Below, in pieces: positions 21,318-60,107 of a DNA stretch of 64,000 nt. Source of the DNA: Microbacterium jejuense (lineage in GTDB: Bacteria; Actinomycetota; Actinomycetes; Actinomycetales; Microbacteriaceae); the NCBI RefSeq assembly GCF_019511665.1, contig NZ_JAEUAW010000002.1, forward strand, positions 310,001 to 374,000, read 5' to 3'. The position numbers and the translations under genes were made by a program. Each line of letters begins with the position of its first letter. Position 1 is the stretch's first letter. The notes under the pieces are model-generated. The model was not told the origin of the DNA, ran no database searches, and saw only the letters and a program-made list of their open reading frames with translations.

Positions 21318-21822
21318 GGCACGGGGGTTGCTCGTGCGGTCGGGGCGTTTCGTCTCGCTCGTGCCTCGCTCGCTCAACGGCCGGGGGTGGGTGTGCCGGT
21401 CGTTGCGCGGAGCGCGCTCTGGCGCGCGCAGACGAAGCGCGTTCTGGTAGGGGGTTGCTCGTGCGGTCGGGGCGTTTCGTCTCGGGAGTCGGTCGCTGAG
21501 CGAGGAGCGCCAGCGACGAGACGAAGCGTCCTCGCTCGCTCAACGGCCGGGGGGGTGTGCCGGTCGTTGAGCGGAGCGCGCTCTGGCGCGCGCAGACGAA
21601 ACGCGGACTGGCACGAGGCCGACCGTGCGGGCGGGGCGTTTCGTCTCGCTCGTGCCTCGCTCGCTCAACGGCCGGGGGGGGGTGTGCCGGTCGTTGAGCG
21701 GAGCGCGCTCTGGCGCGCGCGGACGAAACGCGGTCTCGCACGAGGTTGCTCGTGCGGTCGGGGCGTTTCGTCTCGCTCGTTCCTCGCTCGCTCAACGACC
21801 GGGGGGGGTGTCGCTCAACGAG
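21318..21822. repeat. Intergenic array of about four degenerate 120-170-bp repeats
   Basis: This 500-base gap between tetR and the toroid gene holds no credible gene. It is filled by about four copies of a unit containing GGGGCGTTTCGTCTCGCTCG, then CTCGCTCGCTCAACG, CCGGGGG, CGGTCGTTGAGCGGAGCGCG and GGACGAAACGCG. The cores begin near 21344, 21468, 21636 and 21758. Single fragments occur at 64-100 and 17355-17390, and a full inverted copy lies inside the coding sequence at 61411-61524. Short complementary stretches could fold, but no transposase or clean end is visible. Confidence 0.75.
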
Positions 21823-43606: not shown

Positions 43607-43700
43607 CACCCGCGCTTCCGCGCTGCACCGGGCCGGGCACGTCGGGCCGGGGGTGCCTCCGCTGCTCTGTGGCGCCGCGCAGGGCGCAGTCCTCACGTCG

Positions 43701-43990
43701 TTGTTGGCGAGTCGCCAGGAACGGCGGGTGTTGGGTGTCGATCTTGGCGAGTCGCCAGGAACGGCGGGTGTTGGGTGTCGATCTTGGCGAGTCGCGAGAA
43801 CGGTGGGTTGCGCGGGGCGCGAGGTCATCCGGGGCGTTGTTGGCGAGTCGCCAGGAACGGCGGGTGTCGCGTGTCGATCTTGGCGAGTCGCCAGGACCGG
43901 CGGGTTGCGCCGGGCGCGAGGTCATCCGGGGCGTTGTTGGCGAGTCGCCACGAACGACGGGTGCGGGGCGTAGTTCCTGGCGAGTCGCCG
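43701..43990. repeat. Nested tandem repeat with palindromic core GGCGAGTCGCC
   Basis: Seven cores start at 43706, 43746, 43786, 43842, 43882, 43939 and 43979; copies 3, 6 and 7 vary. Spacings are 40, 40, 56, 40, 57 and 40 bases, so a 40-base unit is nested in a 96-97-base unit. Most cores are followed by AGGAACGGCGGGTG. The longer unit carries GGGCGCGAGGTCATCCGGGG. The whole 430-base gap between the membrane-protein gene and purB (43607-44037) contains no credible gene. Confidence 0.9.
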
Positions 43991-56890: not shown

Positions 56891-57895
56891 ATGACCCCGA
56901 CTCGACGTTCGATCACCCTGCTCGGCCTGGCCGCGGCATCCACCCTCGTCCTGGCCGGGTGCGCGAGCACCGCTCCGGCAGCAGGAGGCGACGGGCGCAT
57001 CCAGATCGTCGCGTCGACGAACGTCTACGGTCAGATCGCCGAGGAGGTCGGCGGCGACCTCGTCGACGTCACCTCGATCGTGACCAACGCGTCGCAGGAT
57101 CCTCACTCGTTCGAGCCGAGCGCGCGCGACCAGCTGGCTGTCTCGAAGGCCGACCTGCTGATCGAGAACGGGGGCGGCTACGACTCGTTCCTCGACGCCC
57201 TGATCGAGTCGAGCGGCACCGAGGCCCCCGTCGTCACGGCCGTCGAGCATTCGCATGCGTGGGAGGACGCCACCGGAGAGGCGCACGACGAGAGCGATGC
57301 GGAGGGCGGCGCGACCGAAGCCGCCCACGACGACGAGCACGAGCATGACCACGACCACGATCACATCGAGGGCTTCAACGAGCACGTCTGGTACGACCCG
57401 CACACCGTCGCGCACGTCGCCGAGGCGATCGCCGAAGAGCTCGGCGAGCTGAGCCCCGACGACGCCGCCACCTTCACCGCCAACGCCGAGGCGTTCGCCG
57501 GCGAGATCGACGGTCTGGAGGCCTCGCTCGACGAGATCGCGGCGGCGCACGAGGGCGAGCAGGTGTTCGTCACCGAGCCGGTGCCGGTCTACCTGATCGA
57601 GGCGGCGGGCCTCGTCAACGCGACGCCCGAGGCCTTCAGCGAGGCGGTCGAAGAGGGGCAGGACGTGCCGCCGGCGACCCTGCTCGAGTCGCAGCAGCTC
57701 ATCCGCGGCGGCGACGTGCGGCTCGTGATCACCAACGCGCAGACCGGCGGGGCCGAGACGCAGGCGGTGGTCGACGAGGCCGACGGGCTCGGCATCCCGG
57801 TGATCGCGTTTTCTGAAACGCTGCCCGAGGGGGAGACTTACATCTCGTGGATGCAGGCGAACATCGAGGCGATCAGCACGGCGCTGCAGGCGTGA
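56891..57895 (+). CDS. znuA: Zinc ABC transporter substrate-binding lipoprotein
   Basis: This 334-residue lipoprotein captures zinc outside the membrane. The lipobox LVLAGC places the lipid on Cys24. Ligand motifs are DPHSFEPS (about 74-81), the His/Asp/Glu-rich loop HDDEHEHDHDHDH (about 137-149), HVWYDPHTV and the C-terminal IAFSETL. The acidic His loop is the usual mark of zinc-type cluster A-I proteins. It is the first gene of znuACB under the Zur box and overlaps znuC by 4 bases (GTGA). Confidence 0.93.
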   Translation: MTPTRRSITLLGLAAASTLVLAGCASTAPAAGGDGRIQIVASTNVYGQIAEEVGGDLVDVTSIVTNASQDPHSFEPSARDQLAVSKADLLIENGGGYDSFLDALIESSGTEAPVVTAVEHSHAWEDATGEAHDESDAEGGATEAAHDDEHEHDHDHDHIEGFNEHVWYDPHTVAHVAEAIAEELGELSPDDAATFTANAEAFAGEIDGLEASLDEIAAAHEGEQVFVTEPVPVYLIEAAGLVNATPEAFSEAVEEGQDVPPATLLESQQLIRGGDVRLVITNAQTGGAETQAVVDEADGLGIPVIAFSETLPEGETYISWMQANIEAISTALQA

Positions 57896-58728
57896 CGCCG
57901 GACGCACGCACCTCGGAGCGCCCGGTCGTCCTGAGCATCCGGGATGCCGCACTGCAGCGGGGTCCGCGCGAGCTGTGGTCGGGGCTCGACCTCGACGTCC
58001 ACGCCGGTGAGCTCGTGGCCGTCCTCGGCCCGAGCGGATCGGGCAAGACCACGCTGCTGCGCGCCATCCTCGGCCTGGAGCCCCTGTCGCGCGGCAGCAT
58101 CGAGGTCGAAGGCGCGGCCGTGGCGCACCGGGGCAGCCGCCGCATCGGCTACATCCCGCAGGCCCGGCCGCTGCCCCGCGACACGTCGCTGCGGGGACGC
58201 GACCTCGTGACGCTCGGCGTCGACGGCCACCGCTTCGGCCTGCCGCTTCCGCGTCGAGGCGACCGCGCACGCGTCGACGCCCTCATCGACGCGGTCGGCG
58301 CACGAGGCTTCGCCGACCGCCCGGTCGGCGAGCTGTCTGGCGGTGAGCAGCAGCGGCTGCGCGCCGGGCAGGCCCTCGCCGACGATCCGCCGCTGCTGCT
58401 GTGCGACGAGCCGCTCACGAGCCTCGATCTCGCCAACCAGCAGGCCGTCATCGGCCTCATCGACCGTCATCGCCGCGAGCGCGGTGCGGCCGTGCTCCTC
58501 GTCACCCACGACATCAACCCGCTCCTCGGCAAGGTCGACCGCATCCTGTACATCGCCAACGGGCGCTTCACCCTCGGCACGCCCCAGGAGGTGCTGCGCT
58601 CGGACGTGCTCACGGCGCTGTACGGCGCGCACGTGTTCGTGCTGCGCGCGGGCGACCGGCTCGTCGTGGTCGGAGCGCCCGACGCCGAGGCATCCCATCA
58701 CCACCACGAAGGCCCGGTGCACGAATGA
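57892..58728 (+). CDS. znuC: Zinc ABC transporter ATP-binding protein
   Basis: This 278-residue cytoplasmic ATPase drives zinc import. It shows Walker A GPSGSGKTT (about 46-54), signature LSGGEQQRL, Walker B LLLCDEPLTSLD and switch His in LVTHDINP. GTG 57892 overlaps the znuA stop. The tail ends HHHHEGPVHE, and its last bases are the first unit of the 17-base tandem repeat. Confidence 0.93.
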   Translation: MTPDARTSERPVVLSIRDAALQRGPRELWSGLDLDVHAGELVAVLGPSGSGKTTLLRAILGLEPLSRGSIEVEGAAVAHRGSRRIGYIPQARPLPRDTSLRGRDLVTLGVDGHRFGLPLPRRGDRARVDALIDAVGARGFADRPVGELSGGEQQRLRAGQALADDPPLLLCDEPLTSLDLANQQAVIGLIDRHRRERGAAVLLVTHDINPLLGKVDRILYIANGRFTLGTPQEVLRSDVLTALYGAHVFVLRAGDRLVVVGAPDAEASHHHHEGPVHE

Positions 58729-58779
58729 GCGAGGTGCACGAATGAGCGAGGTGCACGAGTGAGCGAGGTGCACGAATGA
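58716..58779 (+). repeat. Four 17-bp tandem units forming chained mini-reading frames at the znuC-znuB junction
   Basis: GGTGCACGAATGA recurs at 58716, 58733, 58750 (with GTGA) and 58767, always 17 bases apart. Each unit carries a stop overlapping a start. Frames 58725-58745, 58742-58762 and 58759-58779 each read Met-Ser-Glu-Val-His-Glu-stop. The last stop overlaps the znuB ATG at 58776. Translation could pass from znuC to znuB through three terminations and restarts. Confidence 0.9.
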
Positions 58780-59639
58780 ACTGGGGCGACATCGCCGACG
58801 CCATGTTCGGCGGTCTGCCGTACTACGGCGAGATCCTGGCGCTCGTGTCGAACTCGGTGTGGGCCGGCGCGGTGCTGGGCCTCGTGGGCGGGCTCGTGGG
58901 CGTCTTCGTCATGCAGCGCGACATGGCGTTCGCCGTGCACGGCATCAGCGAGCTGTCGTTCGCGGGGGCGGCGGCCGCGCTGCTCATCGGCGTGGACGTC
59001 GTCACCGGCTCGATCGTCGGCTCGATCGTCGCCGCCGCCATCATCGGACTGCTCGGCGCCAAGGCGCGCGACCGCAACTCGATCATCGGCGTGCTGATGC
59101 CGTTCGGCCTGGGTCTGGGCATCCTGTTCCTGTCGCTGTACGACGGGCGCAGCGCCAACCGCTTCAGCCTGCTGACCGGCCAGATCGTATCCGTGCAGAC
59201 CGGGCAGCTGGGCTGGCTCATCGCCATCAGCGCCGTCGTCCTGCTGGGGCTGCTGCTCATCTGGCGGCCGCTGCGGTTCGACTCGCTCGACCCGCAGTCC
59301 GCCGCCGCGCGCGGGGTGCCGACCACCGCGGTGTCGCTCCTGTTCATGCTGCTGCTCGGGCTCATCGTCGCCGTCGCGGTCCACATCATCGGAGCGCTGC
59401 TCGTGATGGCGCTGCTCGTGACGCCCGCCGCCGCAGCGATGCGGGTCGCGTCCGGACCCCTGTCGGTCCCGTTGCTGTCGGCCCTGTTCGGCTTCGTGTC
59501 CGCGGTCGGCGGCATCCTCCTCGCCATCATGGGCACCCTCCCGGTGAGCCCGTACATCACGACGATCTCGTTCGTCATCTACGTCGTGTGCCGCCTCGTC
59601 GGCGCCCGCCGCGGCCGCGTCACGCGGGCGACCGCATAG
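58776..59639 (+). CDS. znuB: Zinc ABC transporter permease
   Basis: This 287-residue membrane subunit has about eight helices and forms the zinc channel. It starts MNWGDIADAMFGG and contains FVMQRDMAFAVHGISELSFA, the metal-transport signature of ZnuB/TroC-type permeases, then ALLVMALLVTPAAAAMRVAS. Its ATG is embedded in the last 17-base repeat unit. The zur start follows the stop by 45 bases. Confidence 0.92.
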   Translation: MNWGDIADAMFGGLPYYGEILALVSNSVWAGAVLGLVGGLVGVFVMQRDMAFAVHGISELSFAGAAAALLIGVDVVTGSIVGSIVAAAIIGLLGAKARDRNSIIGVLMPFGLGLGILFLSLYDGRSANRFSLLTGQIVSVQTGQLGWLIAISAVVLLGLLLIWRPLRFDSLDPQSAAARGVPTTAVSLLFMLLLGLIVAVAVHIIGALLVMALLVTPAAAAMRVASGPLSVPLLSALFGFVSAVGGILLAIMGTLPVSPYITTISFVIYVVCRLVGARRGRVTRATA

Positions 59640-59684: not shown

Positions 59685-60107
59685 ATGGTCCAGCGCAACA
59701 CGTGGCAGCGCGAACGCGTGCGCGAAGCGCTGACGGACGCCCGCGGATTCGTCAGTGCACAGTCGCTGCACGCGACCCTCCGCGACGAGAACACGGGCAT
59801 CGGCCTGGCCACCGTGTACCGAGCCCTCGCCGGGCTCGCCGCGCAGGGCGAGGCCGATTCGCTGCAGAGCCCCGAGGGCGAGGCGCTGTACCGCGCGTGC
59901 GTCAGCGCAGGGCACCACCACCACCTCATCTGCCGCTCGTGCGGACTGACGGTCGAGATCGAGGCCACCGACGTGGAGCAGTGGGCGCGCGCCACCGCCG
60001 AGCGCCACGGCTTCCGCGACGCCGAGCACGTCGTCGACATCTTCGGGCTGTGCGCGGCCTGCGCCGCCACCGCCGACTCGCGCGCCGAGAAGCGTGACGC
60101 GCACTGA
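59685..60107 (+). CDS. zur: Fur-family zinc uptake regulator
   Basis: This 140-residue repressor has the Fur winged helix (FVSAQSLHATLRDENTGIGL, then TVYRALAGLA), the regulatory zinc site around AGHHHHLICRSCG and structural-zinc cysteine pairs CRSC and CAAC. Placement inside the znu cluster and the Zur box at znuA support Zur rather than Fur. A local TAGACT -10 suggests independent transcription. The following gene starts 14 bases before its stop. Confidence 0.93.
   Translation: MVQRNTWQRERVREALTDARGFVSAQSLHATLRDENTGIGLATVYRALAGLAAQGEADSLQSPEGEALYRACVSAGHHHHLICRSCGLTVEIEATDVEQWARATAERHGFRDAEHVVDIFGLCAACAATADSRAEKRDAH

Follow-up and report, generated by a model that had tools for sequence, protein, structure and literature searches.

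A 17-bp repeat array that may relay ribosomes from znuC to znuB in Microbacterium

Background

Gene-junction repeats with an internal frame that is coupled to the following gene at a spacing of -4 have been described as mycobacterial interspersed repetitive units (MIRUs) (PMC12548453). The units at senX3-regX3 measure 77 and 53 bp (PMC4213456), both leaving a remainder of 2 on division by 3. MIRU units span 40–100 bp, occupy 41 places in H37Rv (PMC2734929), vary in copy number and are apparently mobile (PMC12548453). The rnc-fpg1 repeat of mycobacteria, with units of 55 and 79 bp that begin 40 bp past the stop codon, is off this 2 mod 3 rule (PMC2734929). Two other kinds of system are related. 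Termination-reinitiation coupling at -4 spacing relies on an NTGA stop/start architecture (PMC12548453, PMC6728339, PMC10666635), and in short upstream ORFs, minigenes and bicistronic designs a tiny frame possibly serves just to deliver a ribosome (PMC12548453; axe-txe minigene, PMC8708949); the examples described in these sources lie in leaders or inside a gene, not on the stop codon of an upstream gene.

Reports differ on how coupling tolerates distance. In native E. coli and Haloferax gene pairs reinitiation was nearly abolished by gaps of 20–38 nt (PMC10666635), and a review cites constructs whose coupling was undiminished by gaps as wide as +25 nt, along with others that lost it 3- to 10-fold at about +40 nt (PMC12548453). 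Among the matches listed, judged by titles and the beginnings of abstracts, there was no statement that small frames generally bridge gapped junctions. No paper in the collection searched joined Microbacterium, tandem repeats and translational coupling, and the papers listed for Microbacterium with znuB or zinc uptake had nothing on the znuC-znuB junction.

Results and discussion

The window (the whole 64,000-nt stretch of Microbacterium jejuense DNA that was analysed) contains, in a row and as judged by Pfam, znuA, znuC, znuB and a Fur-family gene (Table 1). The last of these is probably Zur, a name suggested by the neighbourhood. The relatives of this znuB assign the window to Microbacterium. 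If the GTG at 57892 is the start of znuC, as taken here, the TGA of znuA overlaps it by 4 bases.

Table 1. Features of the znuA-znuC-znuB region, in positions of the window
Feature	Coordinates	Strand	Basis or detail
znuA-like zinc-binding protein	56891..57895	+	Pfam PF01297 (ZnuA)
znuC, ABC ATPase, His-rich tail ending GPVHE	57892..58728	+	PF00005 (ABC_tran); start codon inferred (57892 GTG; longer start 57847 also listed)
17-bp tandem array, 3.8 copies	58716..58779	+	TRF, lag-17 identity
Mini-frame 1 of the putative relay, ATG AGC GAG GTG CAC GAA TGA (MSEVHE)	58725..58745	+	sequence
Mini-frame 2 of the putative relay, ATG..TGA (MSEVHE)	58742..58762	+	sequence
Mini-frame 3 of the putative relay, GTG..TGA (GTG start, then SEVHE)	58759..58779	+	sequence
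GAGGTG, Shine-Dalgarno-like, before mini-frame 2 start	58731..58736	+	sequence; predicted duplex -11.4 kcal/mol
GAGGTG before mini-frame 3 start	58748..58753	+	predicted duplex -11.4 kcal/mol
GAGGTG before znuB start	58765..58770	+	predicted duplex -11.4 kcal/mol
znuB, ABC-3 permease	58776..59639	+	PF00950 (ABC-3)
Fur-family regulator	59685..60107	+	PF01475 (FUR)

The stop codon of znuC (58726-58728) and the start of znuB are now 47 nt apart. TRF reports the array between and across them as a tandem repeat of period 17 with 95% matches and a score of 121, and the lag-17 identity across it is 45/47; when the full 64 kb was resampled 20 times with a first-order Markov model, the maximum per resampling was 26–32. 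The initial annotation had described a 17-bp repeat that makes three six-codon frames between the two genes, each step shifting frame and ending in a TGA over a new ATG or GTG, and both points were confirmed: the four successive starts fall at 0, 2, 1 and 0 modulo 3, and a 4-base stop/start overlap is present at every step from znuC through the three mini-frames to the znuB ATG at 58776.

When 3n-1 bases are duplicated in tandem across an NTGA overlap, the copy begins in the reading frame of the downstream gene and continues in that of the upstream one; it can therefore hold no stop, and neither gene is damaged. Since 17 is such a number (2 mod 3), gain or loss of a unit never breaks the chain of frames. 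In keeping with this, each mini-frame opens like znuB, with Met-Ser in place of Met-Asn, and closes with the znuC tail, which in the window reads Val-His-Glu-stop. This composition supports the proposal, also made in the initial annotation, that an ancestral ATGA overlap between znuC and znuB underwent duplication in steps of 17 bases, here to three extra units, with the chain to znuB unbroken. Arrays of the same period occur at three other kinds of Microbacterium junction, with gene kinds assigned by Pfam. Between nadK and a RecN-like gene the array encodes MIEETS three times, where the downstream protein starts MIEE and the upstream one ends TS; the array that separates a histidine kinase from a response regulator (L248) encodes MTRAAS and MTRAAL; and between a short-chain dehydrogenase and a MoxR-like ATPase it encodes MTGPVK and MTGLVK in four units. 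Two more junction arrays (L261 and L270) are degenerate and weaker cases, with poor unit identity and gene kinds judged by eye only.

Among the described systems, MIRUs such as those of senX3-regX3 come nearest in working. Here too a junction repeat holds a frame that overlaps the next gene by 4 nt, the unit length is 2 mod 3, the copy number varies (for the window array, between species only), and one of the arrays just listed likewise separates a histidine kinase from a response regulator. In contrast to MIRUs, the unit has a period of 17 rather than roughly 40–100 bp, derives from the junction's own sequence and is found in one place: a 301-base query covering the junction gave no other array-covering match in the same genome, and the pattern of three RTGA at 17-nt spacing hit the array (two overlapping matches) and one other, non-repetitive place. 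As the unit is too short, locally made and not found dispersed, the array is not a MIRU. Each step has the NTGA architecture of -4 coupling, with the difference that 47 nt separate the two genes and three mini-frames in series link them; and unlike the upstream ORFs and minigenes described, these frames start on the stop codon of the preceding gene and follow one another in series.

The junction was then compared in 210 sequences (80, 29 and 100 loci plus the window), with L001-L004 and L085 excluded as own or weak matches. Gene starts were set from conserved N-termini, the -4 start being preferred wherever it was in frame. In this set 191 junctions were at -4 and 19 were not. Duplicates were collapsed by 600 nt of sequence, the genus genomes partly overlapping the named loci, and this left 170 distinct junctions, comprising 155 plain -4 overlaps, 12 bridged junctions and three others. 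Of these three, L038 has a gap of 15 nt with no bridge, L074 has a -8 overlap, and L175 is a poor assembly in which the frame is broken and a spacing of -4 would be expected. Thus 12 of the 15 distinct loci that are not plain -4 are bridged at both ends, and in all 12 the znuB product begins (M/V)NW. The window is the sole locus with three bridging frames. A single frame is present in each of the other 11, of 17 nt in ten and of 65 nt in one (L092), where its 22 codons remain open and overlap both neighbours. A pattern search found the bridge in 11 of 366 genomes, every one already in the sample, and missed L008 and L109, which have a different znuB start.

This distribution bears on two artefactual or incidental explanations. 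If the array were an assembly error, as might occur in a draft genome (4.2 Mb in 49 contigs), it would be curious to find the single 17-nt version in ten other distinct relatives and a longer frame in one more; the array is also just 64 bp long and its copies are non-identical (ATG/ATG/GTG starts), and we regard an error as highly unlikely. It is equally improbable that the peptides themselves matter, for instance as a metal-binding hexapeptide. They do contain Glu and His in an operon that moves zinc, but the Val-His-Glu end is the znuC tail repeated and the sequences are not conserved, varying widely among relatives (MTGPRA, VNGGAS, MNGGRS, MSGGAA).

In a FastTree phylogeny of the 170 rows the junction state changes about ten times, at least nine of the changes being forced by starred branches, and these changes may be gains or losses; the placement of L105 rests on unstarred branches. 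The sisters L090 and L102, whose znuB sequences are 95.6% identical, differ in junction state (one unit in L090, none in L102), and L087, the nearest relative of the window in the set, carries one unit. In four bridges (L008, L049, L093 and L117) the resemblance to the flanks has been lost, as judged by eye, and both overlaps have been kept.

A second junction, nadK-recN, was examined in 50 loci chosen by recN homology (the top 30 and all but two of the 22 ranked below them; the two skipped, G084 and G365, are both at -4), with start codons again picked to favour the -4 overlap when in frame. Forty-four of these are at -4 and six are gapped. All six gapped junctions are bridged by one frame with 4-base overlaps to both genes, at start-to-start distances of 17, 17, 41, 32, 32 and 32 nt, each of which leaves 2 on division by 3. 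On the short, weakly resolved tree of the 50 rows they need three changes, of which at least two are forced. In addition, a search for RTGA 8–38 nt upstream of recN matched in 39 of 361 genomes. From these, 25 loci were examined, three were already in the set (G099, G100 and G119), and 11 with a distance of 35 were left out. The 25 comprise 14 junctions at -4 with a chance RTGA, six single bridges (distances of 8, 17, 23 and 29 nt), two loci (L379 and L383) in which a frame walk confirmed two bridging frames in series between nadK and recN, and three that were unclassed by script, of which L381 and L382 read as -4 in their reading frames and L374, by eye, is unlike a nadK-recN junction. At distance 35, L388-L390 have an internal GTG of nadK and no bridge, and the other 11 were assumed to be alike. 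Among the classed loci there was no gapped nadK-recN junction lacking a bridge, in a search that requires A or G before the stop.

If every locus is counted, a bridge is present at 18 of the 19 gapped junctions (12/13 for znuC-znuB and 6/6 for nadK-recN), and many of these share ancestry, which lowers the number of countable cases. A random duplication is 2 mod 3 one time in three, so a bridge comes free a third of the time without selection; for gaps of 5–60 nt in general, a rough estimate puts chance bridging at 13–33%. If the loci are reduced to seven tree-separated groups (for znuC-znuB a clade of 23 rows, L105, L008, L117 and the failing L038; for nadK-recN two), six are bridged, and p is about 0.007 as calculated by hand provided that the groups are separate gains, which the trees do not prove. 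The excess of bridged gaps over chance is suggestive and not final.

A further indication comes from the base before the znuC stop, which is the first base of the first mini-frame. It is A in eight and G in four of the 12 bridged loci; in the 155 plain loci, where the same base begins the actual znuB start codon, the counts are 107 A, 45 G and 3 C. Background A at third positions is 2.5% in znuC and 7.1% in its last 20 codons. In pairwise comparisons of the bridged loci, A is retained before the znuC stop in 56 of 88 cases (64%) as against 148 of 906 (16%) elsewhere in znuC, with one other third position of znuC likewise showing A in eight of the 12. The pre-stop base of bridged loci thus looks like that of a start codon in use.

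Our preferred reading, to which we assign a probability of 0.57, is that the duplications at this junction have been retained as a ribosome relay between znuC and znuB. Duplication of 17 bp across the ATGA overlap would have created three chimeric mini-frames with a znuB-like start and a znuC tail. After terminating at the TGA of znuC, a ribosome would restart on the overlapping ATG, read six codons, stop on the next overlap and repeat this until it reached znuB. This presumes that ribosomes translate the mini-frames and that the units were kept because of that translation. Given the effect of gaps in PMC10666635, coupling would be expected to fail over 47 nt if ribosomes were not carried across by the small frames. 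The constructs cited in PMC12548453 that remained coupled over a gap weaken this argument, as they suggest that a bridge may be unnecessary. Additional initiation at znuB from its own GAGGTG site is likely, and relay and direct entry can act together.

The serious rival is that the repeat is neutral: the copies would be harmless products of slippage, znuB would be started independently at GAGGTG, and the chain of frames would follow mechanically from a 3n-1 period. The initial annotation had set a strong separate ribosome entry for znuB, together with no coupling, against its own interpretation, and this is partly seen here. Duplex energies were computed against the 16S 3' tail found in the same genome. 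The znuB GAGGTG, lying 7 nt before the start (counted from GAGG), has a predicted energy of -11.4 kcal/mol and ranks 22nd of 168 loci, so independent ribosome entry is plausible; upstream of mini-frame 1 the predicted energy is -9.4 kcal/mol. In the predicted RNA ensemble the znuB start codon is 79% and the ribosome site 45% unpaired. Neutrality is also favoured by the locus with the unbridged 15-nt gap, which has the second strongest ribosome site of the 168 (-14.2), and by the positions of most 17-nt arrays in the genus, described below. It accounts poorly for the near-complete bridging of gapped junctions at both gene pairs, for the retention of start-codon bases at the first junction and for the four bridges that kept both overlaps after their likeness to a repeat had gone. 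On balance we consider the neutral explanation less likely than the relay. Neither of two local properties was upheld as the reason for the repeat. Predicted Shine-Dalgarno strength is alike at bridged and plain loci (p = 0.86), and RNA structure differs little between them, with median unpaired probabilities of 0.43 (bridged) and 0.32 (plain) at the ribosome site and of 0.48 and 0.41 at the start codon.

The initial annotation had also suggested that changes in repeat number tune or switch znuB output, and had proposed a comparison of copy number in relatives. Unit number does vary between species (0, 1 or 3), even between sisters 93–96% identical in znuB, with one genome representing the window's own species. 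Precedents exist in M. tuberculosis, where higher mRNA accompanied a longer repeat ahead of fpg1 (PMC2734929) and where promoter tandem-repeat copy number is reported to vary in isogenic populations, in 1 in 100 to 1 in 1000 chromosomes (PMC12817950); such variation within a culture indicates that broadly comparable repeats need not be stable. These cases concern promoters or mRNA level, however, and not coupling. Moreover, because the chain survives whenever 17 bp are gained or lost, and is continuous at loci of 0, 1 and 3 units alike, the sequence offers no ON/OFF state, and by this sequence argument a change of repeat number would not break and restore expression as in a phase-variable switch. 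Phase control was therefore not borne out and a dose or phase device as a whole seems improbable, although a graded effect of unit number on znuB dose is possible.

If the bridging of gaps does far exceed chance, coupling would be under selection in these operons, a point disputed in published reporter work, and the junctions would amount to an experiment, set up by nature several times over, that asks if direct ribosome hand-over between neighbouring genes is needed in bacteria. The array shows how an operon junction can take up a duplication without damage to either gene, and natural alleles of 0, 1 and 3 units are available for measuring the cost per hand-over. More tentatively, and with somewhat less than even confidence, -4 coupling may be so strongly kept in Microbacterium, and perhaps more widely, that gaps fill with relay frames, 3 to 22 codons long, under selection. 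Duplications of 3n-1 bases would be a self-healing supply of many of these, and chains of two to four frames would be the extreme. Operon junctions would then generally evolve by this rule, with MIRUs as its mobile special case.

Across the genus, 44 of the 366 Microbacterium genomes contain four RTGA spaced 17 nt apart, against 7 for the reversed control. The corresponding 16-bp pattern is found in 18 of 198 genomes (reversed control 11), several of its matches being 8-bp repeats, and the 20-bp pattern in 19 of 198 (reversed control 11), the three controls being table readings; a recount of the 17-bp pattern in the same 198 genomes gave 23. When coding regions around these arrays were called with a codon score trained on the window, 6 of 48 arrays of 17 bp lay exactly between two genes and 42 did not, compared with 0 of 18 for 16 bp and 1 of 27 for 20 bp, for which the arrays of four genomes were sampled in part. 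A special role for the 17-bp period was rejected, the excess over 16 and 20 bp being too small and most arrays not being at gene-gene junctions.

Several observations were made alongside these counts. The single 20-bp junction case (L316, in G168) has three seven-codon frames in series with 4-base overlaps and no sequence repeat, and may be chance or an old relay. By the codon score, eight 17-bp arrays start from a gene's stop codon with no gene start at the far end (e.g. L260, L267, L269, L271, L272 and L274). A 20-bp periodic repeat family (GTGAGTATTCG...CGA) occupies many places on both strands in a few Microbacterium genomes (G081, G259, G261 and G138), with 78 matches to the 20-bp pattern in G081. 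Among the znuC-znuB loci, a short contig filed as Stenotrophomonas maltophilia (L041) carries a Microbacterium-type junction and is probably contamination. Within the window, GGCATCC occurs 64 times, compared with 7.5 expected from base composition, and GGATGCC 43 times; the motif is also found inside znuC tails and is perhaps Chi-like or chromosome-orienting. Two larger tandem arrays lie at 21530-21808 and 43697-43989, with units of 127 bp (2.2 copies) and 40/97 bp, respectively.
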